A stretch of 64,000 nucleotides of DNA from Candidatus Gastranaerophilales bacterium (lineage in GTDB: Bacteria > Cyanobacteriota > Vampirovibrionia > Gastranaerophilales > Gastranaerophilaceae), in contig CAJOKJ010000017.1 of NCBI GenBank assembly GCA_905235155.1, forward strand, positions 62,001-126,000, given 5' to 3'. The notes beneath the pieces were generated by a model. The model had not been told where the DNA came from. It was given only the letters and a program-made list of their open reading frames with translations, and did not search any database. A program made the position numbers and the translations under genes. This document shows, one piece after another, positions 3,382 through 61,345 of the stretch; positions within the stretch are counted from its first letter, which is position 1, and the number at the start of each line of letters is the position of its first letter.

Positions 3382-3409
3382 TAAAGTTTTTATAAAAGAT
3401 TTCCGACAT
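3382..3409 (+). promoter_or_regulatory. Putative sigma28 (FliA)-like promoter
   Basis: TAAAGTTT-N12-TCCGACAT, about 36 nt upstream of ATG 3445. Confidence 0.5.
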
Positions 3410-3444
3410 ACATAGTGTCTTAATGGAAAATAAAGGGTGTGTGT

Positions 3445-4050
3445 ATGGGAATGGACGGAATTTCAAATATTAATGCTAATATGATGTACGCAGTTAGTGC
3501 AGTACATTTTGGATGTAATAATTTAAGCGAAGAATTAATAAAAAAATTAAAAGAATTGGGAATTGATCCTTCGACAGTTAAATCTGAATCCGAAGCACGT
3601 GCATTAATTGCACAGGCTGAAAAACAGCAGTCAACAAACCAGCCTACACGTACACAGCAAGCTCAGGCTCAACCTCAAGTTGCAAGTCCTAATATAGATT
3701 TGAAAAAATTGAATGATGATATCAAAAACATGGGTGACAAGTTGGGTATTGATGTTAAAACAATAAAAGACCCTAAAGAAATTGTTGATAAGTTTGATGC
3801 TGCTATAAAAGAATTTACTGCTGCTGCATCCGTTCAAACAAATAAAAATGTTGCAGTGCAAGTTGATAATAACAAGCAAAATGGAATAAAGATTTCAACC
3901 GGTGCTGAAATTGTTGATAAGCCGGAAACTATACAGGCTGATTTTAAGTCTATAAAAGATAGAGTTGAAGAATTAGAAAATGCTAAAAATGCTATGTTTG
4001 CTGGACAAGACATGCTTGCAATGATGAACAGAATGGCTTTGGGCATTTAG
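3445..4050 (+). CDS. Hypothetical protein, about 200 aa
   Basis: ORF with GTG/ATG starts at 3439/3445, preceded by AAAGGGTG; Gln/Ala-rich middle; no family recognised. Confidence 0.7.
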   Translation: MGMDGISNINANMMYAVSAVHFGCNNLSEELIKKLKELGIDPSTVKSESEARALIAQAEKQQSTNQPTRTQQAQAQPQVASPNIDLKKLNDDIKNMGDKLGIDVKTIKDPKEIVDKFDAAIKEFTAAASVQTNKNVAVQVDNNKQNGIKISTGAEIVDKPETIQADFKSIKDRVEELENAKNAMFAGQDMLAMMNRMALGI

Positions 4051-4152
4051 TTTATTTAAAAAGTAAAGAGTTTTTACGACTGTAAAACATTAATTGTTTT
4101 ATGGTCGTTTTGCTATATAATATTCTTGTAGATATAGGGTGAGGTATTTATT

Positions 4153-7100
4153 ATGAAAAAAATTTGGATAATTTTAGGTAGTATAGTAGGCGGATTAGTA
4201 TTTTTAGCCTATTTGGCATTTTTATTTGTGCTTCCTAATGCAATTGATTTAAATCAATATAAACCAATGGTACAAAAGCTGGTAAAAGAGCAAATACCAT
4301 TAAATGTTGATTTTAGCAATGCAAAAATAACGACAACTCCTTTGTTATCAATAGGTGTGAAAGCGGATAATATAAACGTTCAATTTGAAGACGGAAAAAC
4401 TTTATTTTCTGCTGATAATGCTAAGTTTAGAATTGCCTTGCCTAGTTTACTATTGCTTACTGCAAAAGTTTCAACTGCTGAAATAAATAATCCAAAATTG
4501 AATTTTACAATTGTTGACGGTAAACAATTCAAGATTTTAATGCTTGTTGAACAAATTTTACAAAAGCAAGAAGAACAAATTACAAGCGAAACAGCAGCAG
4601 AAGTTGAAACGGCTTTTGATACTTCTTTTATAAGAATAAAAGTTCCGAATTTCAGAATCAATAATTATGATGTAAAAATTGTTGATGAAAAATCGGGTCA
4701 TAATCTTGAATTAAAAGGTGATTCTTTAAAATTGGCATATTTAAACGGCAAAGTTGTAAAGGTAAAAACTATTGCAGAATTTTATAGTGATAAAGATAAA
4801 AATATTACGGCAGATATTGATATAAATTCATTTTTGCCACCTGCTGAAAAACTTGATGCAGAAGATGACAAACCTGAAAGAGTAGAGCTACCGTTTGTAA
4901 ATCCTGTTCTTGCATATAGAGAATATAATTTAAAATCTAATTTATCCACAAAGTTAAAAATAAGAGAAAACAAAGGTCAAATTCGTTTGAATGGTTTTCT
5001 AAATATTGATAATACTACTTTAAAATTGGCAGATTATAATCTTCCGAAATGTTATTTTCACGGTATTTTTAACGGTACAAAAGGCAATATTGATACGACA
5101 GTTTCGGTTGCAAAGGGCGAAAATGTTGCTCTAAAAGGACTTTATGATTACGGTAAAAACAAAAAATTGGATATGGTTGTAAAAACCGATAGAATTTATT
5201 TTAATGATTTAATAATTCTTGCAAAGGCATATTTTGATTCTTTGCATATAAAAAATGATTTGAATTTAATAAAAGGTTTAGGTTATTTAGAAGCGAATGC
5301 AAATTTAAATACTAATTTAAGAAAGCTTGTTTCTGAAGGTAAAATTTTGGTTAGAGATGGCGGTATTGTAAATAAAAGTATAAATTTGGGTATAACAAAA
5401 ACAAACGTTAATTTGTTACTGGATAACAATGTTTTAGATATCAAAGACACATATACATATATAAATAATGCAATTCTAAAAGCAGAAGGTAAAATTGATG
5501 AAAAATCGGTTGCAGACATAAAACTTTATGCAAATAAAGTTCCTGTACCAAGTTTATATAGAGCTTTTGCACCAAATGATGTGAAAAGAAGTATTAATAT
5601 TAATAAAGGTAATGTGTCTTTAAACGCAAAAATTAACGGAAAACTAAAAGAACTTATCTGTGATGCAAAAGTAAATCTTGAAAGCTTTATAATGAGTGAT
5701 AAATCAAATTCTTTCAGAGTTATTAATGATGATTTAGAAATAAAACTAAATTCCGATACAAACAAGAGTTTAAACACAATAGAAATATTAAATAAAGGTT
5801 TAACAGTTCTTTTGCCTCAAACAAATTCAACAATAAAAGATAATGTATTGAAAATTAATATTGACGGAACAAGATTAAGATTAAATCCAACGGATGTGTT
5901 GTTGAATAATACTTCAAAAATTACATTTGAAGGGGTAATTGATTCAGATAAAAAAGAACCTGTTTTCAATATTAAAGGTAACGGAAATTTATATGCAACA
6001 GACTTGAAAAAATATGCAGGTGCACAAGCAGCACCATTTATTGACGCAAAGGGTCAAATTCCTTTAGATTTGACAATTGAAGGTGACACAAAACGTCAAA
6101 ATATGGTTTTGAGATTGCTTGCTTCTGCTGAAAATTATATAACACCAGTAACTTTCAAACAAACTTACGGGAAAAACACTGTATTACAAGCAAAAGTTGA
6201 TTTTAAAGGTGACAGATTAAAAATAAAAGATACAGGTTTATATAATATCTCATACACAACAGATGAAGAAGGCAACAAAGTTGAACAACTTGATGAAGTT
6301 GCAGGTATTAACGGAACTGTTACAAATTTGAACAGTACACCATTTATAAATGTTATAAGAATTAAAATTATTGAATGGTACAATACACGGATTTAGAAAT
6401 GCAGGTTTTGACCTGAACGGAAAAATGCTTGTATTTGGTAATTCTGCTTCGCCAAGAGTGCGTGGTAAATTTAATTTAAAGAACTTGTATATAAAAGATT
6501 TGCTTACAACAATGGATAATCTTGCACTTGATTTTAGAGGCAAAACTTTGAATGTGAATGCTCGAAATTTATTGTTAAACGGTTCTGATATTTCTGCACA
6601 AACAGATATTTCATTAGAACCTTCAAATATTTTACACATCAATAATTTAAGAGTAAATTCAAATAATATTGATTTAGATAAATTGATGATGGTAGCAACC
6701 GCAGCATCAAGAATTGTTCCTCAAAGTAGTTCTCCTGCCGCTGCACCGACAGATATACCTGTTGCGTTAAGGAATAGTTCTATTAATTTGCATCATATCA
6801 AAACAGGCAATATAAATTTACGTAATACAATGGCTGATATTTCTTTATTAAGAAATAATCTGTACATTGACCACCTAAGAACAAGAGCCTTTGACGGCAA
6901 TATGCAAGGTAGAATTGCCATGAACTTGTTGAGTAATATGCTTAAAATAGATGTTGCAGGTGAAGACATAAATACAGAAAAATTATTTAAAGATACTGCC
7001 AATATTAAAGATGCATTAACAGGCAAAATGTCATTTAACAGTGATTTGTTAATAAATGCAGGTACAACGGATTATAATGAACAAATGAAATCTTTACTCG

Positions 7101-7897
7101 GTAAAGTTGACTTTTCGGTTAAAGACGGTCAGTTTGGACCTTTTGGTAAATTAGAAAATATGATTTTGGCAGAAAATATTAGAGAATCACAATTTTTCCA
7201 AACAGCATTGGGTGGAGTTTTAAATGGCTTAACGTCAATTGATACAACTCACTACAAAGAATTAAAAGGTTCAATATTATTTAAGGACGGTATAACAACT
7301 CTTGCTCCTATAACTTCTGACGGAAATGTTTTAACACTTTATATTGCAGGTGATTTTGATTTGTTAAAAAATACTGCCGATATGAAAGTTAGAAGATTGG
7401 CATCTATGGTATCAAATGTTTTAGGTCCTATTGCAAACGTAAATCCTGTAAATTTGGTGAAATTAACTCCGGGATTAAATGTTGCTTCTGCAAAATTGTT
7501 TACTTTATTTACTCAACCTGTAACTCAGGAAGAACTTGATGCAATACCTGCATTTGATACAAAAACGGATAATTTAAATGCAACAAAATTCCAAATTATA
7601 GTAAGTGGTGATGTTAATAAGCCTATGTCGTTGGTAAAATCTTTTAAATGGCTTGCCTTGCAATCTCAAATTGATACGGCGGAAAATTTTGTAGCAACGC
7701 TTCCTGAACCGGATTCTCTTGACGCAACTGTTGAAGATATGGAAGAAAAACAAATAGAAGAAGCAAAAACAACGTCAAAAATAAAAAATATTTTCTTTAA
7801 AAAAGACAGAAAACAGGAAGAAGAAAAAATCCAAGAAACTAAGAAATTAATAGAACAAATGGAAAAATCTCAAGATACAAAAATTGAAGATTTATAG
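4153..7897 (+). CDS. AsmA-like / DUF748-like envelope protein, interrupted by a frameshift near 6370
   Basis: ORFs 4153..6396 and 6371..7897 are parts of one beta-repeat protein with an N-terminal TM helix; frame changes at ..RIKI|LNGTIHGF... Confidence 0.75.
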
Positions 7898-7902
7898 ACA
7901 AA

Positions 7903-7938
7903 AAAGAGTGAACTTATTTAAAGTTCACTCTTTTTAAT
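7903..7938. terminator. Bidirectional terminator between convergent genes
   Basis: AAAAAAGAGTGAACTTATTTAAAGTTCACTCTTTTT. Confidence 0.85.
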
Positions 7939-7944
7939 ATGTTT

Positions 7945-8691
7945 CTATTTGCAACTCAATTTAGTCCAACTTAGTTGAGAAGGACATTTTAAATAATCCA
8001 TATTACCGCTAGTCATTACCCAACCGGTACAATCTAAACCTTTAGTAAAACAACTTGAGGATAATTTATCTTTTCCGTAGTTTTGTTCTTGTTCCATACC
8101 CATAGGATATATTCCGTCCTTTGCAAATGCAAATCTAAATATATCTTTTCCCCAAATATGAGGACCTTTTTGGGGCCCGTCAATATCAACCAAAAATACT
8201 CCACAAACATTATTCGTTGGTTCATTTCCTGAGGCTTTAAAATCTCCGCAGTTATTTCTATATATGAGCCATGAGCTGGAAACATCGTCAACTAAAAGCA
8301 TTTTATAGGTGCTTAGAGTGTTATAATTAACATCATTTGAATTGTTTAAAATTTTTGCAGTCCCGGCAGTAAAACAGCCTGATACTGCACCGTCACAAAT
8401 TTTTCGAACTTTTAAAAATTCTCACATTCTTTGGCATGTTATTCTAGTCATAAGAGCATTGTCATCTGTTCCGTTATACCAACTTACGACAGGACCGTAT
8501 TTTATAACAGCTTGTCCGTGTGCATTGTTAAGCTCTGCATAAACTTTTTGTAATTTTGCGACGGTTTCTTTATTATTGGTAGAGTTATTCAAGTTTGGCA
8601 ATGTTAATGATGCAATAACTCCGATTATGCCTATAACAACAAGAGTTTCTGCCAATGTAAATGCTTTTCGTACCAATTGAGTTTGTTGCAT
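7945..8691 (-). pseudogene. Type IV pilin-like prepilin protein with an in-frame TGA
   Basis: N-terminus KAFTLAETLVVIGIIGVIASLTLPNL; ORFs 8422..8712 and 7945..8301 are in the same frame, separated by ..TCQRM-TGA-EFLKVRKICDGAVSGCF..; C-terminal half is typical of lineage pseudopilins. Confidence 0.75.
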
Positions 8692-9048
8692 ATATATTTT
8701 ACCTTTCATCATTCTGCTTATATTGTATTAATTCCCATAATCAAATATTAACAAACAATTTTACTTTAATCAATGTAATTTATTTACATAAGATTAAAAT
8801 AATACTAATAGTTTACATTTAATGTAGTAGAAAAAAATCATCCTCAATTTTTTGGTGTATTTTTCAAAATCCATGTGCCGCATGAATTTTGACCTTTTGT
8901 TAATCTTTTGGTCTACATCGGTTTATAAATCCAAAAATACCCTATTTTAAATCTTTTTGTTGATGTAACCTCCTCCAAAAAGATGTAGTATGAACAGTGT
9001 AGAAAACGAAAAAATTTATAGGGACATAAAAAAGATTTGGGGGAACAA

Positions 9049-9771
9049 ATGAGACAATTCAAAAAACAAGCAAGAGTAATTTTAATTGATGACAATTACG
9101 ATCATCTTGCAGGGGTAAGAGAACTTTTAAGTATGGAAAGCTCTTTTGATGTTGTTGCAGCAACAACAAGTGCAAATCAAGGTATTAATCTTGTTAAAAA
9201 GCATAAACCCGATGTTGTTTTGATGGATATGAATATGCCTGAAATGAATGGCTTACAAGCAATTCAAGAAATTGAAGAATTAGGATTAGATACAAAAATT
9301 TTAGCATTAAGTGCTTATGATGATGCAGATTTGATTTTCAGAGCAATGAAATTAGGAGCAAAAGGATACGTGTTAAAAACTATGGCATCTGCACAATTGA
9401 TTTATGCAATTGATGAAGTTGCAAACGGCAAAGTTTATATGCCTCCAATTTTAACAGCACGTTTCTTTGATTACTTCCAAAAATCATTCAAAGAAGAAAA
9501 AATTGCACAACAAAAAGCACAAGACTCAAATTACTTATCAGATTTGACACCAAGAGAAGAAGAAGTTTTAGACTTGTTGACTCAAGGTATTACATATAAA
9601 GGCGTTGCACAACAACTATTTATATCTGAAACAACAGTTAAAACTCACGTAAATAATATATTCCAAAAATTACAAGTAAGTGACAGAACTCAAGCGGTTT
9701 TATATGCTATAAATCACGGTTTTATGAGTAAACGTCAAGCAAGATCAGGTGCGTTAACAGCAACTGTATAA
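9049..9771 (+). CDS. NarL/LuxR-family response regulator
   Basis: Receiver domain (VILIDDN, VVLMDMNMPEMNG, LALSAYDD) and LuxR HTH (LTPREEEVLDLLTQG..ETTVKTHVNNIFQKL); GGGGG before ATG 9049. Confidence 0.93.
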   Translation: MRQFKKQARVILIDDNYDHLAGVRELLSMESSFDVVAATTSANQGINLVKKHKPDVVLMDMNMPEMNGLQAIQEIEELGLDTKILALSAYDDADLIFRAMKLGAKGYVLKTMASAQLIYAIDEVANGKVYMPPILTARFFDYFQKSFKEEKIAQQKAQDSNYLSDLTPREEEVLDLLTQGITYKGVAQQLFISETTVKTHVNNIFQKLQVSDRTQAVLYAINHGFMSKRQARSGALTATV

Positions 9772-9801
9772 CAGAACTCCTTTCAAATTTATATAAAGGC
9801 T

Positions 9802-9831
9802 GTCGTGTTATACAAAAATGTGTAACACGAC
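9802..9831 (+). promoter_or_regulatory. Intercistronic hairpin between response regulator and kinase
   Basis: GTCGTGTTA-12nt-TAACACGAC perfect 9-bp stem, no long T-run. Confidence 0.5.
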
Positions 9832-9862
9832 AACCATTACTTTAAGAAAATGTGTGTGAAAA

Positions 9863-11104
9863 ATGGCAAAATTTATAAAAGGCAAAAACAGATTAAAAGA
9901 TTTAATTTATATCCAAGAAAACAAACCTTGCAGTGAAAATGCAATTGACGGTATGGTTCGTTCAATGCTTGAACCTTTGTTTGAAAGTCCTGAAGAAAAA
10001 GGTGTTGTTTTATATAGATTTAACAATAATAATAAATATTCGGGTTTGTTAAGACGTCTGGGGTACACCGCAGTTGATGTTTATAATTTTTCTGAAGGTT
10101 CTAAAGATTTAAAAGAAGATATCTGGGATACAACAGAATTTTTATATGTATTAACAGGCAGATATGGTGCAAGTTTTGTTTATGACTTTCAAACCGAAGA
10201 TGTGGAACATTTTGCAGGCTATTATTTACTTTATAACTCTGTAAATTTGAGAGAATCTTTTGAAATTATCGAAGAAAATTGTACAAAAGATATATCTGCG
10301 TACAAAGAACAATACAAGCCTGATAGACGTGATAATTTATTGATGAACGAGTCTATCAGAAAAATAGTAGATTTAATGAGTGAAACAACTCAAGAAGTTA
10401 TGCTTGCTGATATTGAAAAAGATGCATTAACAAAAAGTGATGACCTTGCAAAACGTCTTGAATTTATTAATTCAAAATCAAGATATGTGGTTCACGAAAT
10501 AAGAAATCAACTCTCAATTTGTGAATTATATGCAAATATTATCGAAAAGCATTGCGAATTAAAAGATAATGTTGATTGTTCAAATGCCGTTGATTGTATT
10601 AAAACAGCAGTAAAAATAGCAAGCAGTGCATTAATGGATTTGAAATCTTTAGATAATAAAGATTTACAAGTATATAACGTAAAATCAATGGTAGAAAAAG
10701 CTGTATTATTGTCAAAAGTTTATGCAAATAACAAATCTATTGAATTTGTGACAAAATTTGATGACAAAAACAGTTCAATATTTGCCGATGAAGCAAAATT
10801 TTTGGCAGCCCTCGTAAATATTATTAAGAATGCAATAGAGGCGATTGAAGATAGTGGTAAAATAGAGGTTTCTACAAGTATAAAAGACGATTTTATCTCA
10901 ATAATTGTTTCAAATAACGGTTTGAAAATTCCTGAGGAAACACAACAAAAGATATTTACGGACGGATTTACAACAAAAACTACCGGCAGCGGAATTGGCT
11001 TGTATGTTTGCCGTCAGTCATTGGAAGAACAGTTTGCAAGATTAGAACTTTTAAAATCTGATGATAATTCAACAGATTTTGAAATTCTGGTAAGTATGGT
11101 ATAA
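9863..11104 (+). CDS. Sensor histidine kinase
   Basis: VHEIRNQLS phospho-acceptor box; HATPase motifs NIIKNAIEAIED, TTGSGIGLYVCRQ. Confidence 0.88.
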   Translation: MAKFIKGKNRLKDLIYIQENKPCSENAIDGMVRSMLEPLFESPEEKGVVLYRFNNNNKYSGLLRRLGYTAVDVYNFSEGSKDLKEDIWDTTEFLYVLTGRYGASFVYDFQTEDVEHFAGYYLLYNSVNLRESFEIIEENCTKDISAYKEQYKPDRRDNLLMNESIRKIVDLMSETTQEVMLADIEKDALTKSDDLAKRLEFINSKSRYVVHEIRNQLSICELYANIIEKHCELKDNVDCSNAVDCIKTAVKIASSALMDLKSLDNKDLQVYNVKSMVEKAVLLSKVYANNKSIEFVTKFDDKNSSIFADEAKFLAALVNIIKNAIEAIEDSGKIEVSTSIKDDFISIIVSNNGLKIPEETQQKIFTDGFTTKTTGSGIGLYVCRQSLEEQFARLELLKSDDNSTDFEILVSMV

Positions 11105-11115
11105 GGATAATAAAA

Positions 11116-11613
11116 ATGGATATTTTATCGTCAAGAACATCGAATATAACACAACTTGCAATGGACGGGTTAATGGAACGTCAAAGAGCGATAGGTGCAA
11201 ATATCGCAAACGTTGAAACACCCGGATATCAGAGGAAAGAAGTTGCTTTTGAATCTCAACTTTCAGAAATCATTGAAAAAGAGGATTTAAAAAATTTTAT
11301 AAAAGGTCAAAATAGTATTAAGCCTAAACCTGTTACATATGATGATTTTATGCAAATGCAGGTAGACAGAGAATACAGACGTAATTTGACACCACAAGAA
11401 AAAAAATATTTGATATCAAATTCATACGGAAAATTTGAACCTCAAGTTATGGATGACGTATTCTCAGAAGGAACTCAAGACGGAAACAATGTGGAACTTG
11501 AACGTGAAATGATGGATTTGAATAAAAACGGTACAAAATTTATGGTTTTATCAAATTTAGAAAGAAAATATTTTAGCGGACTTGGAGAAGTGTTGCGTGA
11601 TGGTGCAAGATAA
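11116..11613 (+). CDS. flgB: Flagellar basal-body rod protein FlgB
   Basis: GANIANVETPGYQRKEVAFESQL..DGNNVELEREMMDLNKN. Confidence 0.93.
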   Translation: MDILSSRTSNITQLAMDGLMERQRAIGANIANVETPGYQRKEVAFESQLSEIIEKEDLKNFIKGQNSIKPKPVTYDDFMQMQVDREYRRNLTPQEKKYLISNSYGKFEPQVMDDVFSEGTQDGNNVELEREMMDLNKNGTKFMVLSNLERKYFSGLGEVLRDGAR

Positions 11614-11641
11614 TTAAAATAAAGATTGGGTGGGAAAATAA

Positions 11642-12148
11642 ATGAGTTTAAATACATTTGATATTGCGGCATCAGGTATGACTGCACAAAGAATAAAAAT
11701 GGATACGGTTGCAAGTAATATTGCGAACGTAAATACAACACGTAATCCTGACGGAACAAAGGGTGTTTACGTAAAAAAATACGTAAATTTCAGAGCAATC
11801 TACGAAGATGAACTTTCAAGAGGTGCAAGAAATTTTGCATCAAATGCAACTGATGCAAAATTTAATCCTATGAACGGTAATTTTACTATAAATACCGGTA
11901 TTGCATTAAATCAGGGCTTGATTTCAAATGGTGTGAGAGTTGAATCAATACAGGAAACTGAAGAACCTACAAAATTAGTGTATGACCCAAATCATCCTGA
12001 CGCAGATGCAGACGGTTATGTTGAATTGCCAAATGTAAATGTCGTTGAAGAAATGGTTGATATGGTTTCTGCATCAAAGGCTTACGAAGCAAATTCTGTT
12101 GTTGCGGAAAACGTTAAGACAATGATTCAATCAGCATTAAATATTTAA
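11642..12148 (+). CDS. flgC: Flagellar basal-body rod protein FlgC
   Basis: FDIAASGMTAQRIKMDTVASNIANVNTTR...GYVELPNVNVVEEMVDMVSASKAYEAN. Confidence 0.95.
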   Translation: MSLNTFDIAASGMTAQRIKMDTVASNIANVNTTRNPDGTKGVYVKKYVNFRAIYEDELSRGARNFASNATDAKFNPMNGNFTINTGIALNQGLISNGVRVESIQETEEPTKLVYDPNHPDADADGYVELPNVNVVEEMVDMVSASKAYEANSVVAENVKTMIQSALNI

Positions 12149-12169
12149 TAAAAAAGGGGTATGTAAAAT

Positions 12170-12598
12170 ATGGATTTTAATACAATAAGCAGTATGAATA
12201 GTTTTCAAACTCAATTTAATCCTATTAAAAACTATAATAATTATCTAAAGGGTAATGCTTCATTACAAGTTAATAATAATTTTCAAAATGATTTTGAAAG
12301 AATGCTTCAAAATTCAATAAAGGCAGAAGAAGAAGCTTCAAAAAGAGTTTATAATCCTGATACTGCTGCTGGTTTAATGAATAATATAGAACGTGCATTC
12401 AGTAACGGTTTGAACGATGTAAACGATAAAAGACTTGAATTAGATGCAATGCAAGAGGCTTTTGCAAGAGGTGAGGACGTAAGTATTCATGATTTGATGA
12501 TTGCAAGTGAAAAATCAATGTTAAGTATGCAAATGGCAATGCAAATCAGAAATAAAATGATTTCAGCATATACTGATTTGAAAAATATGAGTATATAA
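12170..12598 (+). CDS. fliE: Flagellar hook-basal body complex protein FliE
   Basis: C-terminal EDVSIHDLMIASEKSMLSMQMAMQIRNKMISAYTDLKNM; follows flgC. Confidence 0.9.
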   Translation: MDFNTISSMNSFQTQFNPIKNYNNYLKGNASLQVNNNFQNDFERMLQNSIKAEEEASKRVYNPDTAAGLMNNIERAFSNGLNDVNDKRLELDAMQEAFARGEDVSIHDLMIASEKSMLSMQMAMQIRNKMISAYTDLKNMSI

Positions 12599-12634
12599 AA
12601 TTTTATGTTAAAATAATCTCAAAAAGAGGTATTT

Positions 12635-13938: not shown

Positions 13939-14065
13939 AAATAGCGTAGCCACATGTTTTTAAGATAATTGTAACAAAAGTGTTACAATTCTAAAAGTCC
14001 TGTTCTATATGGGTTTAAAGCCTTTGTTAATCATGTTTTTGCGATAATAGGCAATTATTTTTAAT

Positions 14066-14098: not shown

Positions 14099-14128
14099 CA
14101 TACTTTATTGAGAAGAGGACGATTAAAA

Positions 14129-15058
14129 ATGACAGCAGATTTCGCATCAAATTTGAATATGATGATGGCACTGGATAGCTTTACAAACGGTGCATATAAA
14201 TATCAATATCCGACAATAAACGGTCAATCATTTATGGATAATTCCGTATTTGCGATGAATATGCCTGCGGCATTTCAGCAAGGTGTAGCGGTAGCAAATG
14301 CCTTGAATGCAACAAATTATTTCCCTTCAGGTACAGATGTATTTAACGCTTCGTTATCAACACCTGCTTGGTTGCAAAATGTAGGTAACAACTTTGCTAT
14401 GCCAAAGTTTGATTTTACAAATTTGTTTACATATAATCCTTTTGCAAGTTCTCAAACAAATCCGGCAAATCCAAATAATCCTGCTGCTTCAACAGGTGTA
14501 TCCGATTTAGTTAGAGAATTAAATGAACGTGGTATTTCTTCAACAGGTGATGAAGAAAAAGATAAAAAAGCTTTGAAACTTGCAAAAGCAAAAGAGGCTA
14601 ATTTAAAAGCAGAAGCGGCAAGTATTGCAGAAGATTTGTATGATGCAATGAAAGGTGCAGGTACAAAAAATGATAAATTAGTAGCAGCTGTTAATAGAAT
14701 TACAAAAGACAATGTAATGGCAGTTATTGAAGCATGGAATTCTGATTTTGCAGACGGTATGGATGGCGAATCTTTGATTGAGTCAATTCAAGGTGAACAT
14801 CATACAGGCTGGTTCGGACACCAACAAGAAGATTTAGAAAATCATATAAAAGAAGCGTTGTATGAAAAAGCAAAAGAAGTAGGTTTATCAAGTGAAGGTC
14901 ATGCGTTTAGAGCAAAAGTAAATTCAGAACATAGTGCATGGTTTACATCTGACGAAACTGTAAGAACAGCTTTTGATAATATTATAAGTAATATTTCGTC
15001 AAAAGAAACGGAAGTAAAAGAAGAAAATAAACAAAAAGCAATAAAAGGTAATAAATAA
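14129..15058 (+). CDS. Hypothetical protein with annexin-like C-terminal repeat
   Basis: EAASIAEDLYDAMKGAGTKNDKL...DGESLIESIQGEHHTGWFG; shares the module with the next gene. Confidence 0.8.
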   Translation: MTADFASNLNMMMALDSFTNGAYKYQYPTINGQSFMDNSVFAMNMPAAFQQGVAVANALNATNYFPSGTDVFNASLSTPAWLQNVGNNFAMPKFDFTNLFTYNPFASSQTNPANPNNPAASTGVSDLVRELNERGISSTGDEEKDKKALKLAKAKEANLKAEAASIAEDLYDAMKGAGTKNDKLVAAVNRITKDNVMAVIEAWNSDFADGMDGESLIESIQGEHHTGWFGHQQEDLENHIKEALYEKAKEVGLSSEGHAFRAKVNSEHSAWFTSDETVRTAFDNIISNISSKETEVKEENKQKAIKGNK

Positions 15059-15099
15059 TAAAAGTATAGTATAATAGGGTCAATAAAGGAGAACTAAAA

Positions 15100-16383
15100 A
15101 TGAGTGGCGATTTAACGAGTGCAGCAAGAGGTTTAGGGTTTACGGGTACCTTACCGAAAGGTGCTACTGATATTCAAAAAGACGGTAATGGACATTATAA
15201 AGTTACTGTTGGTAATGAAGTAAAGATTTTTAATGCAGATGGTACGCCTGCAAATGATAATTCACTTGCTAGTGCTGCTCAAGATAATAGTAGAAGTAGT
15301 AGTGGAAGTAACAGTGGAAGTAGAACAGAATCTCAACCACAATCTCAACCACAATTACAATCACAATCACAATCGCAACCACAATTACAATCACAATCAC
15401 AATCACAATCGCAACAGTCAAGTCAAAATCGACCACAAGGCAGTGGCATGGGTGAAAGTGTATTTAATGGTTCATTTAGTGGTGGCTTTACCATTGACCC
15501 TGCTGCTATGGGTAATGCAGCAATGAACACCGATGCAATTTTACAGTTTGGCTCAGAAATCCCGTTTGGGCTGGGTGGTCAGTTTAGTCAAGCTGCATTG
15601 GCTCAAAATATTATGGATTATGTAGGTGCAGCGTCATTTAATTTTGATTTTTCAAATTATATGGCTGCTTCATCACCTCAATCCGATCAATCTGTATCCC
15701 AAAATCCAAGTGTAGCAGGTGGTGATACGCAGGTAACAGATTCGGACGGTAATACAAAAACTGTTGCCCAACTTGCAGAAGACGGTGGATACAAAAAAAC
15801 AGCAACAGACGGTGTTTACCAAAAAAACGGCAAATATTATAAATATAATGTAGATAAAAAAGAATTTGAAAAAGTTGCTGAAGCAGAAGCAAAAAAAGCA
15901 AAAGAGGCAGATGATAAAAAAGCAGCCGATGCCGCAAAAGAAGCAAGTGATAAAGAAATTGACGCAGAAGCGGCAAGTATTGCAGAAGATTTGTATGATG
16001 CAATGAAAGGTGCAGGTACAAAAAATGACAAATTGCAGCAAACAATTGAAAGAATTAACAAAGACAATGTAATGGCTGTAATGAAGGCTTGGGACGAAAA
16101 CTTTGCAGACGGTATGGACGGAGAAACCTTACTTGAGTCAATTCAAGGTGAACATCATACAGGCTGGTTTGGAAATGCTCAAGAAAAACAAGAAAAATTA
16201 ATATTAGATGCTTTAGTTGGCAGAGCTGAGGAATTGGGTCTGATAAATGAAGCACATGCTGCAAGAGCAAAAGTAAATTCCGAACATAGTGCTTGGTTTA
16301 CGTCAGACGATACAGTAAGAGCAGCTATTGAAAATTTATATGCAAAAATTAAAGCAAAAGAGGCTGAACAAGCAGGTTCTTAG
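15100..16383 (+). CDS. Hypothetical protein: SQ-rich linker, FNFDFSN motif, YKY module, annexin-like repeat
   Basis: 427 aa; paralogous C-terminus to 14129..15058; RBS AAAGGAG. Confidence 0.8.
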   Translation: MSGDLTSAARGLGFTGTLPKGATDIQKDGNGHYKVTVGNEVKIFNADGTPANDNSLASAAQDNSRSSSGSNSGSRTESQPQSQPQLQSQSQSQPQLQSQSQSQSQQSSQNRPQGSGMGESVFNGSFSGGFTIDPAAMGNAAMNTDAILQFGSEIPFGLGGQFSQAALAQNIMDYVGAASFNFDFSNYMAASSPQSDQSVSQNPSVAGGDTQVTDSDGNTKTVAQLAEDGGYKKTATDGVYQKNGKYYKYNVDKKEFEKVAEAEAKKAKEADDKKAADAAKEASDKEIDAEAASIAEDLYDAMKGAGTKNDKLQQTIERINKDNVMAVMKAWDENFADGMDGETLLESIQGEHHTGWFGNAQEKQEKLILDALVGRAEELGLINEAHAARAKVNSEHSAWFTSDDTVRAAIENLYAKIKAKEAEQAGS

Positions 16384-16399
16384 TAAATAATTTTTATAA

Positions 16400-16434
16400 G
16401 CAGAGAACGGTTTATATATAAACCGTTCTTTGTT
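16400..16434 (+). terminator. Rho-independent terminator
   Basis: AGAACGGTTTATATATAAACCGTTCTTTG. Confidence 0.75.
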
Positions 16435-16500
16435 GTGCAATATTTATTTTATATTTTATGTGTCGAAACCACTCTTATAAAGCTTTTGTAAATTTTTATT

Positions 16501-16719
16501 TTAGTGTGCTCTTCTTGTTGTTGTATTTTCGAAAATATCTCTTGCACTGCTCATTGCAAGAGTTTTTAGCGAACAAATCCCATGAACTTTATCTACAACT
16601 CCAAGACTTGCAAGTCTGTTTAAAAGGAGTTCGTTTAAGTCGTCAGGATTAATAAATAACGCACAGGTTTTATCACAAATATTTTGATTAAACGGACATT
16701 TTTTTAAATTTTCATCCAT
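16501..16719 (-). CDS. Small Cys-containing hypothetical protein
   Basis: 72 aa, MDENLKKCPFNQNICDKTCALF..; AAGGAG upstream. Confidence 0.6.
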   Translation of the reverse strand: MDENLKKCPFNQNICDKTCALFINPDDLNELLLNRLASLGVVDKVHGICSLKTLAMSSARDIFENTTTRRAH

Positions 16720-16938
16720 GTAGCGTACTCCTTAATTTAGTGAAATGTAATACAATGTACCTACATGATAATCAAAATTTTATCAAAAAACAAAATGTAA
16801 ATAAATGTTAAAAAACTTCGAAAACCTTAAAAATACATGCAATTTCGGGGTGAATAATGTTTTTACATGATTGTAGACGTATAGTAAAATAGCGTCGAAA
16901 CTTAAACATGTACACAAAAAGTACAAAAGGAGTCGCTT

Positions 16939-18225
16939 ATGTATCCAAATGCAAGAGTTGATGGCAATCCGGGTGGTGCTGATTGGAAGTCTAAATTACC
17001 TGAGGCACTAAAAAATAAAGTTCCTGAAGGTGCTGATAGTTTTTATAAAGATGGTGATGTTTATATATTTACAAAAGGTGGTAACGTGATATCCGGCGGT
17101 AAATATAATGCTGACGGAAGCGTATTTACGGCTAAGCCATCATCATCTTCAAATATGCCGACTATAAATGATAACCAGATTACACAAGGTATAATGCAAC
17201 AAGGCGGTTCTATCTTTGGGGCAGGCTTTGGAGCAGGTACGGGTGTTGATTTAAACTCATCCTTTATGGGTGGAGGTTACAATATAAATACAAATAAACT
17301 TATGGGTAGTGCAGGTTTATTGGGTGCTGCTTCAATGCTTGCATCAGAAGCACCATTAGGTTTAGGCGGATTATTAGGTTCATTAGCAATGCCGGGTATT
17401 ATGGCAGGGTTTATGAAATCATTGTCATTTAATTTTGATTTTTCAAATATGTTTACATCAGCTCAATCAGGTACAGGTACAGGTACAGGTACAGGTACAG
17501 GTACAGGTACGCTTCCTGAAGGCTTTGAACAAACTGCATTAGCAGGTGTTTACAAAAAAGACGGTAAATTTTATAAGAAAGATGATAACGGTAATTGGCT
17601 TCAATGCGATGATACAGGTAAGATAAAAGATGAAGCAAAATTGCCGACAGGTTATGAAAAAACAGCAACAGAAGGTGTTTATAAAAAAGGCGAAGAATAT
17701 ATAAAATATGATGCCGAAACTCGTACTTATGTTGCTTGCAATGCAGATGGTACAAAAAAAGCAGATGCCCCGGCAGCTGATAAACCGGCAACTGAAACTC
17801 CTGTAGCCGAAAAACCTGCTGAAAAACCTGCAGCCGAAGAACCGGCAGCTGAAACTCCTGCAGCTGACAAACCGGCGGCTAAAACTCCGACAAGGTCAAG
17901 GACTAGTCATGTCAACGGTGACGGTTATAGTGTATCAAGACATTCAAATAGAGTTTTCTATAAATCGGAAGGCGGATCAACTAAATACTATGTAAAGAAT
18001 GGTAATAAATATACTCAAGTGTCTGATTACGACGGAAAAACTTATAAGTTAAACGGTAAGTTATATGATGCTAAGACCGGTAATCAAATAGAAACAAAAC
18101 AAGAGCGTCAACAAAAAGAAAACAGACAACGCATACAACGCATACAAGTTTCTGTTGATGAACAGGCACAAAGAACAACCTTTGCGGCAGATAGCACAAG
18201 AGTTGTTAGACCTATTGTTCCTTAA
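16939..18225 (+). CDS. Hypothetical low-complexity protein with two YKY modules, GT repeat and PAAE/K repeats
   Basis: AAAAGGAG RBS; GFEQTALAGVYKKDGKFYKKDDNGNWLQ and GYEKTATEGVYKKGEEYIKYDAETRTYVA. Confidence 0.78.
   Translation: MYPNARVDGNPGGADWKSKLPEALKNKVPEGADSFYKDGDVYIFTKGGNVISGGKYNADGSVFTAKPSSSSNMPTINDNQITQGIMQQGGSIFGAGFGAGTGVDLNSSFMGGGYNINTNKLMGSAGLLGAASMLASEAPLGLGGLLGSLAMPGIMAGFMKSLSFNFDFSNMFTSAQSGTGTGTGTGTGTGTLPEGFEQTALAGVYKKDGKFYKKDDNGNWLQCDDTGKIKDEAKLPTGYEKTATEGVYKKGEEYIKYDAETRTYVACNADGTKKADAPAADKPATETPVAEKPAEKPAAEEPAAETPAADKPAAKTPTRSRTSHVNGDGYSVSRHSNRVFYKSEGGSTKYYVKNGNKYTQVSDYDGKTYKLNGKLYDAKTGNQIETKQERQQKENRQRIQRIQVSVDEQAQRTTFAADSTRVVRPIVP
17469..17511 (+). repeat. In-frame hexanucleotide repeat (GGTACA)n, coding (GT)n
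   Basis: About 7 tandem ggtaca units inside CDS 16939..18225. Confidence 0.95.
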
Positions 18226-26240: not shown

Positions 26241-26268
26241 ATATCGGATTATCATAAATAAAACTTTA
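26241..26268 (-). promoter_or_regulatory. Putative sigma28 (FliA)-like promoter
   Basis: Minus strand TAAAGTTT-N12-TCCGATAT. Confidence 0.6.
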
Positions 26269-26480
26269 GAGTTTGATATATTTTTTGTAACATTTGTTTA
26301 CAAATTTTAAAAAGATTGAATTAACAGTAACTTGATAATATTAAGAATTGTAAAACATGTAAAAGAGCATGTAGCAAAAAAAAAAATTAGAGTATTTGTA
26401 TGAATGCAAGTTAAATATTTGCGTGAGTGCATGTGAAAACATGTTAAAAAAGTACAATTGAATAGGAAATAAGGGCTGCA

Positions 26481-46825: not shown

Positions 46826-46860
46826 AAATAACCCTCTATATAGAGGGTTATTTTTTATTT
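46826..46860. terminator. Bidirectional terminator
   Basis: AAAAAATAACCCTCTATATAGAGGGTTATTTTTT. Confidence 0.88.
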
Positions 46861-47343
46861 TTCACTACATTGTTTACATTTTTTCTTGAATAATTTGAAT
46901 TTTTTTGTGTGGCAAGAACATTTGCAATCTTCTGAACATTCTTTTTTAACTTTACATTTTTCGCACACTTTACTTTCTGAAGTTTCTGTTGTTGCTTCTT
47001 TTTTGCAATTACATTTTTTGTCTTGGCAACCGCATTTGCAGTCATTTTTTACGCATTCGCATTTCTTTTGGCAATTACATTTGCGGTTTTCACAATTGCA
47101 TTTTTTGTCTTGGCAACCGCATTTGCAGTTATTTTTTACGCATTCGCATTTCTTTTGACAATTACATTTGCGGTTTTCACAATTGCATTTTTTTGCTTGG
47201 CAATCGCATTTGCAGTCATTTTTTACGCATTCGCATTTTTTTTCGCAATTACATTTGCAGTTGCAATTTTCGCAAGCAATTGCACTATTGCTCAAAAACA
47301 AAATCGTACACGCTGCAAATACGCAGGTTAAAATCTTTTTCAT
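46855..47343 (-). CDS. Secreted Cys-rich repeat protein, metallothionein-like
   Basis: Signal peptide MKKILTCVFAACTILFLSNSAIA; three 29-aa repeats CECVKN(D/N)CKC(D/G)CQ(A/D)KKCNCENRKCNCQKK; about 38 Cys in the mature chain; GGAGG RBS. Confidence 0.85.
   Translation of the reverse strand: MKKILTCVFAACTILFLSNSAIACENCNCKCNCEKKCECVKNDCKCDCQAKKCNCENRKCNCQKKCECVKNNCKCGCQDKKCNCENRKCNCQKKCECVKNDCKCGCQDKKCNCKKEATTETSESKVCEKCKVKKECSEDCKCSCHTKKFKLFKKKCKQCSEK
47014..47250 (-). repeat. 87-bp in-frame tandem repeat, about 2.7 copies
   Basis: ttttttgtcttggcaaccgcatttgcag block recurs at about 47014, 47101 and 47188. Confidence 0.9.
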
Positions 47344-47472
47344 AAAGCCTCCAATCTTTCGGGTAACGTACGTAATGATTATAGTCTTAAACAGTACTTT
47401 TGTCAATGTTACACAGAATAAAAACGGCGATTTTGTGGAGTGCAAAATCGCCTTAACGTATCATAAAGTAAT

Positions 47473-49932: not shown

Positions 49933-51591
<1,659 letters not shown>

Positions 51592-51599
51592 TTGTAATT

Positions 51600-51640
51600 A
51601 AAGAAGGCTCAAAACATTTGTTTTGAGCCTTCTTTCTTAA
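51600..51640. terminator. Terminator between convergent genes
   Basis: AAAGAAGGCTCAAAACATTTGTTTTGAGCCTTCTTTCTT. Confidence 0.85.
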
Positions 51641-51667
51641 TAGCCGTATTGCTTATTTATGTTTGTC

Positions 51668-52048: not shown

Positions 52049-52171
52049 GATTTCCTTTTTCCTTTACAAATTTTATAAGTTGACTAAAAATAATAATTGA
52101 CTTATTTTTCATAAACATTACAAAATTGTTACGTTTATGTTAAAATTTTTTTCAAGGAGTATTTATAAGTT

Positions 52172-53890: not shown

Positions 53891-53895
53891 ACCAC

Positions 53896-56154: not shown

Positions 56155-56156
56155 AA

Positions 56157-56651: not shown

Positions 56652-56654
56652 AAT

Positions 56655-56680
56655 AAAAAAAAGCCACCTAATCGGTGGCT
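56655..56680 (-). terminator. Rho-independent terminator on the minus strand
   Basis: AGCCACC-GATTA-GGTGGCT followed by T8 on the minus strand; no T-run on plus. Confidence 0.85.
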
Positions 56681-56728
56681 ACTAGACTTGGGGAGGAGGT
56701 AAGTGAACCTTTCGGTTCTTCTTATGGT
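56655..56728 (-). ncRNA. Putative small RNA, about 74 nt: two stem-loops flanking a C-rich single strand
   Basis: Minus strand: sigma28-like promoter, then AACCATAAGAAGAACCGAAAGGTTCACTTACCTCCTCCCCAAGTCTAGTAGCCACCGATTAGGTGGCTTTTTTTT. Confidence 0.5.
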
Positions 56729-56732
56729 TTTT

Positions 56733-56759
56733 ATATCGCTAATCAATTTCAAAACTTTA
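56733..56759 (-). promoter_or_regulatory. Putative sigma28 (FliA)-like promoter, weaker -10
   Basis: Minus strand TAAAGTTT-N11-AGCGATAT. Confidence 0.4.
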
Positions 56760-56807
56760 TATTAAATTTTCATATATCCTCCAAATGGTTTATGTTAAAA
56801 TTTTCTT

Positions 56808-58078
56808 ATGAATAAATATGTTGAAAAAAATACAATAGGTTTACGTGGTGAAATCGTTATACCATCTGACAAATCACTTTCTCATAGGGCAATAATGTTA
56901 TCATCGATAGCACGAGGTTCTGCCATCATAAATAATTTTTCAGTTGGTGCAGATTGTCATTCAACGTTGAATTTATTTAAAAATTTAGGTGTGAATATTG
57001 AGTTTATTTCTGAACAAAAACTAAAATTAAAATCAACAGGAATATTAGCTGCACCGACTTGTAATCTTGATTGTGGAAATTCGGGTACTACAATGCGTTT
57101 AGTTTCCGGTATTTTGGCAGGTCAAGATTTTAATTCGGTTTTATATGGTGATGAAAGTCTTTCAAAACGACCAATGAAGCGAGTTATAGAACCTTTATCG
57201 TTAATGGGTGCAAAAATAGACTCAAATGAATATAAGGCACCGCTAAAAATATTTGGTAAAAGGCTAAATGGTATTAATTACAGTTCAAAACTTGCGTCAG
57301 CACAGGTAAAGTCTTGTGTTTTACTTGCAGGTTTGCATGCTCAAGGAAAGACGAGTTTTACTGAGCCTTATGTGTCCAGAAATCACACAGAGCTAATGCT
57401 TAAATATTTAGGTGCTGATATTTCTGTTCATAATTCAACCGTAGAAATTGAAAAATCCGAACTTACGGCAAAGGATATAACTATATGCGGAGATATTTCG
57501 TCAGCTGCTTTTTTCATAGTTGCAGGTTTAATTGTTCCAAATTCAGATTTTATAATAAAAAATGTCGGACTAAATCCTACAAGAACGGGTATTCTTGATG
57601 TTGTTGAACAAATGGGCGGAAATATTGAAATATTGGATAAGCGTATTGAAGCAAATGAAGAAGTAGGTGACTTACGTGTGAAAACTTCTGATTTGCGTGC
57701 TTGCGAAATTGGAGTTTAATTCCTCGTTTAATTGATGAAATACCTGTAATAGCTGTTATGGCTACACAGGCTGAAGGTACAACAATAATTAAAAACGCTC
57801 AAGATTTAAGAAATAAGGAATCTGACAGAATTACCGCTGTTGTTACAGAATTAAGAAAATTAGGTGCAGATATTGACGAAACAGCAGACGGTTTTGTCAT
57901 AAATGGTAAAAAGCATTTAAAAGGCGGTTGTGAAATTGAAACCTACCATGACCATAGACTTGCTATGAGTATGTATATTGCAGGGTTAATTTCTAAAAGT
58001 TCCATTAATATTAACGACTTTCAATGGGTTAATATATCGTTTCCTGAATTTGAAAAACTTATTACTTCACTGCAATAA
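56808..58078 (+). CDS. aroA: 3-phosphoshikimate 1-carboxyvinyltransferase, frameshift near 57707
   Basis: SDKSLSHRAIMLSSIA, GNSGTTMRL, SAQVKSCVLLAGL in the first frame; SLIPRLIDEIPVIAVMATQAEG..RNKESDRI in the second (57701..58078). Confidence 0.92.
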
Positions 58079-58439
58079 CCGCAATTTCAAGTAAAGCACC
58101 CTTTGGCATATCACTTACGCTAACGCAAGTTCTGGCAGGTTTTGAGGTGAAATATTTTTCATAAATTGCGTTAAATTTTTTGAAATCTCCCATATAAGCA
58201 AGGTAGCAACTTGTTTGCACAATATTGTCAAAAGTAAATTCTGCTTCTGTTAATATGGCAGAAATGTTTTTAATAACTTGTTCCGTTTGAGATTCGATAT
58301 CAGAGTCAACAAGTTCTGACGTTTCAGGGTCAATACCAACTTGTCCTGAAATATATAATGTATTTTTGTTGACAAGAGTTGCTTGCGAATAAGGTCCAAC
58401 AGCTTTTGGAGCTGCTTCTGTATTAATATATTCAATCAT
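58062..58439 (-). CDS. ridA: RidA family (2-iminobutanoate/2-iminopropanoate deaminase)
   Basis: EAAPKAVGPYSQATLVNKNTLYISGQVGIDPET...SKPARTCVSVSDMPKGALLEIAVIA. Confidence 0.94.
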   Translation of the reverse strand: MIEYINTEAAPKAVGPYSQATLVNKNTLYISGQVGIDPETSELVDSDIESQTEQVIKNISAILTEAEFTFDNIVQTSCYLAYMGDFKKFNAIYEKYFTSKPARTCVSVSDMPKGALLEIAVIAVK

Positions 58440-58488
58440 TATAAACTCCTTAGATAAACTAAAAGCCACTAAAAAGTGGCTTTTAAAA

Positions 58489-58564
58489 TGGTACTCCCAG
58501 GCGAATTCGAATCGCCGTCGCCTCCGTGAAAGGGAAGTGTCCTAGGCCTCTAGACGATGGGAGC
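58489..58564 (-). tRNA. tRNA-Glu (anticodon TTC), encoded CCA
   Basis: GCTCCCATCGTCTAGAGGCCTAGGACACTTCCCTTTCACGGAGGCGACGGCGATTCGAATTCGCCTGGGAGTACCA; cloverleaf complete. Confidence 0.95.
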
Positions 58565-58696
58565 CTATCTGTTTGTGTATTCATCTTATAATAATCCCAA
58601 AAAAATGTCAACTACTTATTTTATTTTTTGTAAATTACTTGAAATGTTTATTTGTTTTGTATAAAATTGAAATATATAATTATAAGGAAAAGTATA

Positions 58697-61191
58697 ATGT
58701 TTGAACGATTTACAGAAAAGGCTATTAAGGTCATAATGCTTGCACAAGAGGAAGCAAGACGATTGGGACATAACTTTGTTGGTACAGAACAGGTTTTGTT
58801 GGGTTTAATCGGAGAAGGCACAGGTGTTGCTGCAAAAACTCTAAAGTCTATGGGTGTTAATCTAAAAGATGCTCGCACGGAAGTTGAAAAAATTATCGGT
58901 AGAGGTTCAGGTTTTGTAGCGGTAGAAATTCCGTTTACACCTCGTGCAAAAAGAGTTCTTGAATTATCGTGGGATGAAGCAAGACAATTAGGACACAATT
59001 ACATTGGCACGGAACACTTGCTTTTAGGCTTGATAAGAGAAGGTGAAGGTGTAGCAGCAAGAGTTTTAGAAAACTTAGGGGTTGATTTAAATAAAATTAG
59101 AAGTAATGTCGTTAAAATTTTAGGCGAATCAAAACCTCAAACAGTTTCATCAGGTGGCAGTTCATCTTCTTCATCTTCAACAACAAAGGCTAAAACCCCA
59201 AGTTTAGATGAATTCGGTACAGACTTAACTTTAGCGGCTGCCGAATTAAGATTAGATCCTGTTATTGGTCGTGAAAAAGAAATTGAACGTGTAATTCAAA
59301 TTCTTGCAAGACGTACAAAAAATAATCCTGTACTTTTAGGTGAACCGGGTGTTGGTAAAACAGCAGTTGTAGAAGGTTTGGCTTTAAGAATTGTTAATTC
59401 TGAAGTTCCTGATATTTTAGATGGTAAAAAAGTTATTCAGCTTGATATGGGACTTTTGATTGCAGGTACTAAGTATCGTGGTGAATTTGAAGAACGTTTG
59501 AAAAAGATAATGGATGAAATTCGCCAAGCAGGTAATATCATACTTGTAATTGACGAAATGCATACTTTAATTGGTGCGGGTGCAGCAGAAGGTGCTATTG
59601 ATGCTGCAAATATTTTAAAACCTGCGTTATCAAGAGGTGAAATTCAAGTTATTGGTGCTACGACTCTTGATGAATATAGAAAACATATTGAAAAAGATAC
59701 TGCTTTGGAAAGACGTTTTCAATCTGTATTAATAGAAGAACCTTCAATTGACGATTCTATTGAAATTATACGTGGTTTAAAACCAAAATACGAAGAACAC
59801 CACAGATTAATTATTTCTGATGATGCTATTGTCGCTGCGGTAAAATTGTCAAGCAAATACATTACCGATAGATTTTTGCCTGATAAGGCAATTGATGTTC
59901 TTGATGAAGCAAGTTCTAAAGTTCGTTTAAAAGTAAGTTCTTTATCTCCTGAAGGTAAAGAGTTGGATAAAGAACTTCGTGCAATAATTAAAGAGAAAGA
60001 AGAAGCAATAAGAAATCAAGAATTTGAAAAAGCATCTCAACTTCGTGATGATGAAGCAAATATGAAAGAGCGTATTCGTGAAGTTTCAGAAGAATGGAGA
60101 AATGAACACGATGCTAATAAACCGGTTGTAACAGAAGAAAATATTGCAGAAGTTATCGGTATGATGACAGGTGTTCCTGTTACAAAATTGACTGAAAGCG
60201 AAAGTGACAGATTATTAAAACTTGAAGAAACTTTACACGAAAGAGTAATTGGTCAAAATGATGCGATTGTTGCTATTTCAAAAGCAATAAGACGTGCGAG
60301 AGTTGGTTTAAAATCGCCAAACAGACCTATCGGAAGCTTTATTTTCTGTGGTCCTACCGGTGTTGGTAAAACTGAACTTGCAAAGGCATTGTCAGAAGCA
60401 GTTTTTGGTTCTGAAGATAACATGGTTAGAGTTGATATGTCAGAATTTATGGAAAAACATTCAACTTCTAAACTGATTGGTTCACCTCCGGGATATGTTG
60501 GCTATGATGATGGCGGCAGTTTGACAGAAACTATCAGAAAGAAACCTTATTCGGTAATTCTTTTTGATGAAATTGAAAAAGCACATCCTGACGTGTTTAA
60601 TATTATGTTGCAAATTCTGGATGATGGTCGATTGACTGATTCAAAGGGCAGACATGTAAACTTTAAAAACACAATTATTATAATGACTTCAAATGTTGGT
60701 GCAAGTATGATAGCAACTCAATCAAAATTGGGCTTCTCTACTGCTGATGACGAAAAGAAAGATAAATACGAAAAATTAAAAGATACGGTTAATGAAGAAA
60801 TGAAAAAAGCTTTCAGACCGGAATTTATAAACCGTATTGATGATATTATTGTATTTGCTCATTTAAGCAAGGAAGAAATCAGAGAAATTGTTGATTTGAT
60901 GATGAAAGACTTGTTTAAACGTCTTGATGAAAGAGGCTTAAAAATGGAAGTTACTAACGAAGTGAAAGACTTTATGGCAACTGACGGATACAAGAAGCTT
61001 ACGGTGCAAGACCTTTGAGAAGATTAATTCAACGTAAAGTTGAAGATACTCTTGCAGAAGAAATCTTGACAGGTAAATATCATGAAGGTGATACGATTGT
61101 TCTTGATATGAAAGACGGCAAGATGTTCTTTTCAAAAAAAGGTGAAGTTGTAAATTTGGAAGAAGAAAAAATGAAATCTTCTAAAGAATAA
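58697..61191 (+). CDS. clpC: ATP-dependent Clp protease ATP-binding subunit ClpC, frameshift near 61000
   Basis: [61 protein letters not shown]; expected tail [25 protein letters not shown].. continues in another frame to 61191. Confidence 0.95.
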
Positions 61192-61215
61192 GAAGTATAA
61201 AAAGTATATGATATT

Positions 61216-61255
61216 AATGGGGCAAATTTTATCTTTGCCTCATTTTTTTTGTGTA
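61216..61255 (+). terminator. Rho-independent terminator after clpC
   Basis: ATGGGGCAAATTTTATCTTTGCCTCATTTTTTTT. Confidence 0.8.
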
Positions 61256-61317
61256 AACAATTTATAAAAATAATTAATAATGATTGTAAAGATATGTAAC
61301 GGAAATGTTCAAAAACC

Positions 61318-61345
61318 TAAAGTTTACATGTATTTTTACCGATAA
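61318..61345 (+). promoter_or_regulatory. Putative sigma28 (FliA)-like promoter
   Basis: TAAAGTTT-N12-ACCGATAA, about 44 nt upstream of ATG 61389. Confidence 0.65.

Follow-up and report, generated by a model that had tools for sequence, protein, structure and literature searches.

A candidate sigma28 (FliA)-type regulon that includes a conserved small RNA in Gastranaerophilales

Gastranaerophilales is an order of non-photosynthetic relatives of cyanobacteria, common in the gut and uncultured or barely studied. The window analysed here is the whole of a 64,000-nucleotide stretch (contig CAJOKJ010000017.1, positions 62,001 to 126,000) of a draft genome from this order. It carries flagellar rod genes, genes of unassigned function behind near-identical promoter-like sequences, and a putative small RNA (sRNA). 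The features on which the argument is built are given below.

3382-3409, plus strand: putative sigma28-type promoter TAAAGTTT-N12-TCCGACAT, an exact match, 36 nt from the -10 to the ATG, Shine-Dalgarno sequence present
3445-4050, plus strand: gene for a 201-aa protein of unassigned function (203 aa from the GTG start at 3439)
9034-9043, plus strand: GATTTGGGGG, second-best predicted pairing site of the sRNA, before the ATG (9049) of a NarL-type response regulator gene
11116-12598, plus strand: flagellar rod genes flgB, flgC and fliE, above the NCBIfam cut-offs of TIGR01396, TIGR01395 and TIGR00205
26016-26195, minus strand: 59-aa ORF (MRKVNYQRFKNALEEQKTVNF...), with AAGGAG before the ATG
26241-26268, minus strand: putative sigma28-type promoter TAAAGTTT-N12-TCCGATAT, an exact match, 46 nt from the -10 to the ATG
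26287-26303, minus strand: element TTGTAAACAAATGTTAC upstream of the promoter, its start 35 nt from the -35
56655-56726, minus strand: putative sRNA of ~72 nt, its 5' end placed from the promoter and its 3' end from the terminator
56655-56680, minus strand: intrinsic terminator AGCCACC-GATTA-GGTGGCT-T8, 3' end of the sRNA
56684-56700, minus strand: unpaired invariant core of the sRNA, ACCTCCTCCCCAAGTCT, conserved in homologs
56733-56759, minus strand: putative promoter of the sRNA, of sigma28 type, TAAAGTTT-N11-AGCGATAT, whose CCGATA core is off by one base (GCGATA)
56774-56787, minus strand: CATTTGGAGGATAT, a conserved box whose end is 14 nt upstream of the sRNA -35; flagellin has it too, at the same spacing
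61284-61300, plus strand: element TTGTAAAGATATGTAAC upstream of the promoter, its start 34 nt from the -35
61318-61345, plus strand: putative sigma28-type promoter TAAAGTTT-N12-ACCGATAA, an exact match, 44 nt from the -10 to the ATG
61389-62297, plus strand: gene for a 302-aa member of the MG[ML]xxSQxR family, ending early relative to its paralogs, with a frame change near 62288

The sequence-only reading of this DNA had proposed a sigma28 (FliA)-type regulon scattered through the window, on the strength of three sites with identical spacing and a weaker fourth. The three exact sites are indeed found at those positions and with that spacing (strict matches at 3382-3408, 26242-26268 and 61318-61344), while none is expected from 100 dinucleotide shuffles of the window. 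The features it had described 3' of the sites are likewise present (the 201/203-aa, 59-aa and 302-aa ORFs and a short RNA ended by a terminator), and profile cut-offs confirm flgB, flgC and fliE as the flagellar rod genes that it had mentioned. The fourth site, which it had called weaker, is at 56734-56759 one base off TAAAGTTT-N12-CCGATA and has the canonical 26-bp span; the sRNA behind it is the best conserved member of the regulon. Relaxed to three mismatches, the motif occurs in the window at the background level, with no enrichment, and we therefore base the claim on near-exact sites only.

Across the draft genome (2.05 Mb in 64 contigs), the strict motif has 10 matches versus 0 for a reversed-pattern control, and all 10 lie 32-174 nt 5' of an ORF with a Shine-Dalgarno sequence. 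A looser form of the motif yields 16 matches versus 3 in the control, adding another MGxxxSQxR gene and flagellin, whose near-consensus site has one -35 mismatch and lies 53 nt 5' of the ATG. The sites are nearly exact when compared with TAAAGTTT-N11-GCCGATAA, spacing included, and the spacer is one base longer in six of the ten strict sites. In addition, among 14 sites drawn from this genome and a single relative, 7 have TTGTAAA-N3-ATGTAAC starting exactly 34-35 nt 5' of the -35, some of them paralogous copies. It is seen at 26287-26303 and 61284-61300 in the window and at L003, L004, L010, L021 and L024. This element is probably an activator site.

Three observations had been named beforehand as counting against a FliA regulon (no fliA in the genome, a motif as common inside genes as upstream, and its loss in close orthologs), and none of them was borne out. 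The genome encodes fliA (235.8 bits against TIGR02479, cut-off 189.6), the sole gene passing the FliA model, together with several further sigma70-family genes, flagellin and FlgK/FlgL-like genes. Within the family, fliA is above the cut-off in 140 of 146 genomes; the motif has 926 matches in these genomes versus 64 for the control, with at least one match in 138. Nor is the motif as common inside genes as upstream of them: among 60 strict sites in five relatives, 52 are followed by a Shine-Dalgarno sequence and an ORF no more than 115 nt downstream and one lies 5' of the sRNA, while 7 fall inside any ORF of at least 100 aa. Such positions, 20-115 nt 5' of ORFs with Shine-Dalgarno sequences, are promoter-like. 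The genes downstream of the 60 sites encode mostly uncharacterised proteins, and flagellin is absent among them. Furthermore, the motif is kept at an ortholog of the 203-aa protein in another genus, in the MGxxxSQxR family and at the sRNA. The presence of fliA, the motif counts, the promoter-like positions and the flagellin site thus support the proposed regulon, and on these sequence comparisons RNA polymerase with sigma28 (FliA) very likely uses the sites as promoters.

The proteins encoded behind these putative promoters are diverse. The 201/203-aa protein matches no Pfam family above the cut-off, and its ortholog in another genus (L067/L068) shares 29% identity (E 1e-19) and also has the promoter motif. 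The MGxxxSQxR family occurs in 145 of 146 genomes, often in 10-20 copies, and its members have conserved, helical ends and a variable middle; when their upstream regions were collected without regard to the motif, about half scored at least 11 of 14, versus about 4% of shuffles. A structure model of the 302-aa protein, based on three sequences, has a mean pLDDT of 58.6 and a low-confidence middle, so that only the two terminal helices are usable. In this gene (MGMSASQARLL, 61389-62360, plus strand) the C-terminal EFDSVKSLIGENVEKSFNLFS conserved among paralogs lies in another frame from ~62288, which reflects either a real frameshift or an assembly error. Targets in relatives include an identified GAF/HD-GYP protein (a c-di-GMP enzyme), EF-hand-like proteins and proteins of 41-60 aa. 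Families of 41-47 aa lie directly 3' of strict sites in several genera (L375, L382, L393, L400, L410, L411 and L413), with patterns such as MWPGAYSF...ELK.F and M.NYP.DE.REEDL.KL.DVLDEC. Most targets being uncharacterised, the label "late-class, motility-linked" that had been attached to them is presumptive, and nothing in these proteins proves a part in motility. Compared with the enterobacterial FliA class III regulon, the promoter consensus and spacing, the fliA gene and the flagellin target are alike; the differences here are the mostly uncharacterised and scattered targets, the extra spacer base in 6 of 10 sites, the element 34-35 nt from the -35 at some sites, and FlgM, which was not detected with PF04316.

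The putative sRNA lies between aroA (56808) and an unrelated ORF and consists of a covarying 5' hairpin, the invariant unpaired ACCUCCUCCCCAAGUCU and the terminator. It folds better than its shuffles (z -3.5). With stems scored sequence by sequence, the 5' hairpin is present in 175 of 175 distinct homologs (mean z -4.5), and a single stem position can use as many as six pair types (CG, GC, AU, UA, GU and UG); the consensus structure of a MAFFT alignment omits it because its sequence is not conserved. Between this hairpin and the terminator lie 17 nt that, by contrast, hardly vary among homologs. BLAST found homologs in 118 of 146 family genomes and 37 of 41 genera. The names borne by records with the sRNA are Candidatus Gastranaerophilales, Melainabacteria or those of gut bacteria, plus a single record titled 'Clostridia'. 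Allowing at most one mismatch, the core is found in 237 of 382 genomes of a class-wide sample: 232 of 276 in the family, 5 of 10 from the order's remaining families and 0 of 96 in other orders. Judged by this core, the sRNA does not extend beyond the order in the genomes sampled from the class. In genus g41 the core is a variant, longer by two inserted bases, and coverage of the family is hence above the exact-core count. Membership in an Rfam family was rejected, as nothing scores above its gathering score (best isrD, 29.7 bits versus 37). From context, conservation and the covarying structure, we consider it highly probable that this is a real, transcribed gene.

Upstream regions of the sRNA, chosen by homology of the sRNA and not by the motif, have best -35/-10 matches averaging 11.7 of 15 versus 9.4 in shuffles, and 27 of 89 homologs score at least 13 of 15, versus 2 of 1780 shuffles. 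Some homologs match sigma28 poorly, and TAAAG...GCCGATAA is kept in sRNA representatives from another family of the order. In most homologs a ATTTGGAGGATAT-like box precedes the -35; it has zero mismatches in 99 of 191 regions versus 4 of 191 shuffles, a comparison in which the consensus was derived from the same data. Flagellin in this genome has TTTAGAGGATAT in its promoter, likewise 14 nt from the -35, and roughly a quarter of a megabase of sequence examined yielded no further copy. The box and spacing common to both ties the sRNA to flagellin control, and the promoter evidence makes it probable that transcription of the sRNA is FliA-dependent. In some genomes (e.g. L113, L126, L139 and L211), the GGAGGATAT/GATGAGAT box forms a full inverted repeat with arms of up to 12 nt, which suggests the operator of a dimeric regulator; the response regulator encoded at 9037-9771 is a candidate for binding the GGAGGATAT box.

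The closest parallel in architecture is Yfr1 of cyanobacteria. Previous studies have shown that Yfr1 is 54-69 nt long, with two stem-loops, the second being the terminator, and an unpaired, ultraconserved CU-rich stretch (PMC2190773), and that it has been verified to act through this unpaired stretch, for the most part where translation begins (PMC6974561), with targets among envelope and other genes (PMC6778093, PMC6974561). Our sRNA is of similar size, has two stem-loops flanking an unpaired CU-rich stretch with CUCCUC, fits the layout of two stem-loops with 16-20 nt unpaired between them, has variable loop and stem sequences, and occurs as a rule at one locus per genome. However, the Yfr1 motif ACUCCUCACAC is absent, the core being ACCUCCUCCCCAAGUCU in all but the variant genera; the guaB/trxA neighbourhood of Yfr1 is absent in the window, the sRNA lying beside aroA; and the sRNA has a sigma28-type promoter and no Rfam match. 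Because the motif and synteny tests fail, we rejected the identification of the sRNA as Yfr1. Sigma28-dependent sRNAs have been described in Escherichia coli (UhpU, MotR, FliX and FlgO; PMC10578931) and Campylobacter (CjNC1/CjNC4; PMC4626219). Compared by description, they resemble the present one in its probable FliA control, consistent with its conserved sigma28-type promoter (at least 13 of 15 in 27 of 89 homologs), and in a proposed action on flagellar expression. The E. coli RNAs are UTR-derived, whereas the sRNA here has its own promoter and terminator, and CjNC1/CjNC4 are predicted to act on sigma54-dependent leaders, whereas the target proposed here is fliA.

The proposed action is by analogy with Yfr1, in which an unpaired motif acts at translation starts. 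When pairing of a 20-nt core was predicted against 231 start regions of this genome, fliA ranked first, the NarL-type response regulator second and flgC fourth; shuffled cores do as well or better in minimum energy across these regions, so that only the identity of the predicted targets is notable. We then have 40 usable fliA leaders from relatives, phylogenetically non-independent, for comparison with 639 other leaders. TTGGG occurs in 19 of 40 fliA leaders versus 15 of 639 others, mostly 11-13 nt 5' of the ATG, and CTTGGG, a complement of the core, in 7 of 40 versus 0 of 639. The latter is the most enriched 6-mer of fliA leaders, the top 6-mers include two exact core complements, and the mean duplex energy with the core is -11.1 for fliA leaders versus -6.5 for the others. 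ACTTGGGGA is found in the fliA leaders of some genera (e.g. g26, g32 and g39). TTGGG is missing from the fliA leaders of several sRNA-bearing genera and, in the genus to which the window belongs, from most of those sampled, and the fliA leader of genus g41 has no complement to its two-base-longer core. Genome-wide, near-perfect sRNA complements number 49 versus 30 in the control, with almost none at start sites, and this comparison says nothing useful about targets.

We suggest a model in which FliA would transcribe flagellin and dispersed genes for small, coiled-coil or probably exported proteins, three of them in the window, together with the ~72-nt sRNA. The sRNA would keep its invariant CU-rich stretch unpaired between the 5' hairpin and the terminator, and CCCCAAG(UC) within it could pair with translation-start regions bearing (GA)CUUGGGG, chiefly that of fliA, with the response regulator beside flgBC-fliE as a second possible target. 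By blocking translation at these starts, the sRNA would let FliA restrain its own synthesis, a negative feedback. To this account as a whole, sigma28 promoters plus a FliA-made sRNA that dampens FliA, we assign a probability of about 0.7. Its last step is the most tentative: the partial complementarity is observed, while pairing and repression are what we infer from it, and feedback on fliA itself seems to us possible at somewhat less than even odds. FlgM is the usual, though not a required, brake on FliA in a FliA regulon. The PF04316 profile, which detects FlgM in E. coli, B. subtilis and Thermotoga, finds it in 0 of 146 family genomes, a search that a divergent anti-sigma factor could escape. 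It would be tempting to go further and see an order-wide, Yfr1-like, FliA-promoted sRNA, coregulated with flagellin through the common box, as replacing the missing FlgM checkpoint by pairing with the fliA start region and limiting FliA synthesis, in a regulon shifted from flagella to a large set of uncharacterised, probably exported proteins; this extension is speculative and rather unlikely to hold in full.

The FliA promoters and the sRNA could be real and the sRNA nevertheless act on many other mRNAs through its anti-Shine-Dalgarno-like CCUCCUCCCC, the likeness to fliA being due to an unrelated conserved leader. We take this possibility seriously, while holding it short of an even chance. 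The entire 17-nt core is invariant, which exceeds what pairing with fliA needs; fliA leaders show no enrichment of matches to the ACCUCCUC half; several sRNA-bearing genera have no fliA match; and Yfr1 sets a precedent for many targets (PMC6778093, PMC6974561). However, two exact core complements stand among the top enriched 6-mers of fliA leaders, flagellar genes lead the list of predicted targets, and flagellin has both the promoter and the upstream box in common with the sRNA. A different question is what the sigma factor serves. It might have a mainly non-swimming role, controlling a flagellar export apparatus, remodelled or incomplete, and its many substrates such as the MGxxxSQxR family and the small proteins. 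A full flagellar gene set is present in only some Gastranaerophilales, most early genomes having no complete set (PMC4040986), and fliA is nonetheless near-universal; the strict sites of the five relatives lead mostly to uncharacterised proteins and never to flagellin; and the MGxxxSQxR family, found in 145 of 146 genomes, has conserved helical ends and variable middles. With flagellin, FlgK/FlgL-like and rod genes all present in this genome, we regard such a role as unlikely here, but not remote.

The motif could also belong to another sigma factor or an activator that resembles FliA in its recognition sequence, as several other sigma70-family genes are present and extra upstream elements occur at some sites. 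The near-exact consensus and spacing, the single gene over the FliA cut-off and the motif at flagellin make this very improbable. Chance matches in an AT-rich genome might be suspected from the background level of relaxed matches in the window; they have next to no probability and are ruled out by the counts (0 strict sites expected in the window, 926 matches versus 64 across the family), together with their promoter-like positions and conservation. We thus retain the reading of sigma28 promoters with a FliA-made sRNA.

Among the papers that our literature search covered, none mentions FliA alongside Melainabacteria and none deals with an sRNA of Melainabacteria. A regulon defined by sequence offers an entry to dozens of uncharacterised gene families, and the near-universal FliA with its non-flagellar targets is worth following in a group of which only some members have full flagellar sets (PMC4040986). 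That a lineage sister to cyanobacteria conserves an sRNA with a CU-rich core is relevant to the question whether Yfr1-type RNAs predate photosynthetic cyanobacteria. If an RNA does feed back on a sigma factor in a group in which no FlgM is detected, this would be a different answer to flagellar timing control.

Several further observations concern other parts of the window. A response regulator and a sensor kinase are adjacent to flgB, flgC and fliE (9037-12598, plus strand), and it is plausible that they form a flagellar two-component regulator. Three neighbouring low-complexity proteins that look secreted are encoded at 14108-18225 (plus strand), the first two with a common C-terminal domain (SIAEDLYDAMKGAGTKNDKL...QGEHHTGWFG). 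Lastly, a very Cys-rich repetitive protein (CENCNCKCNCEKKCEC...), metallothionein-like in appearance, is encoded at 46855-47445 (minus strand).
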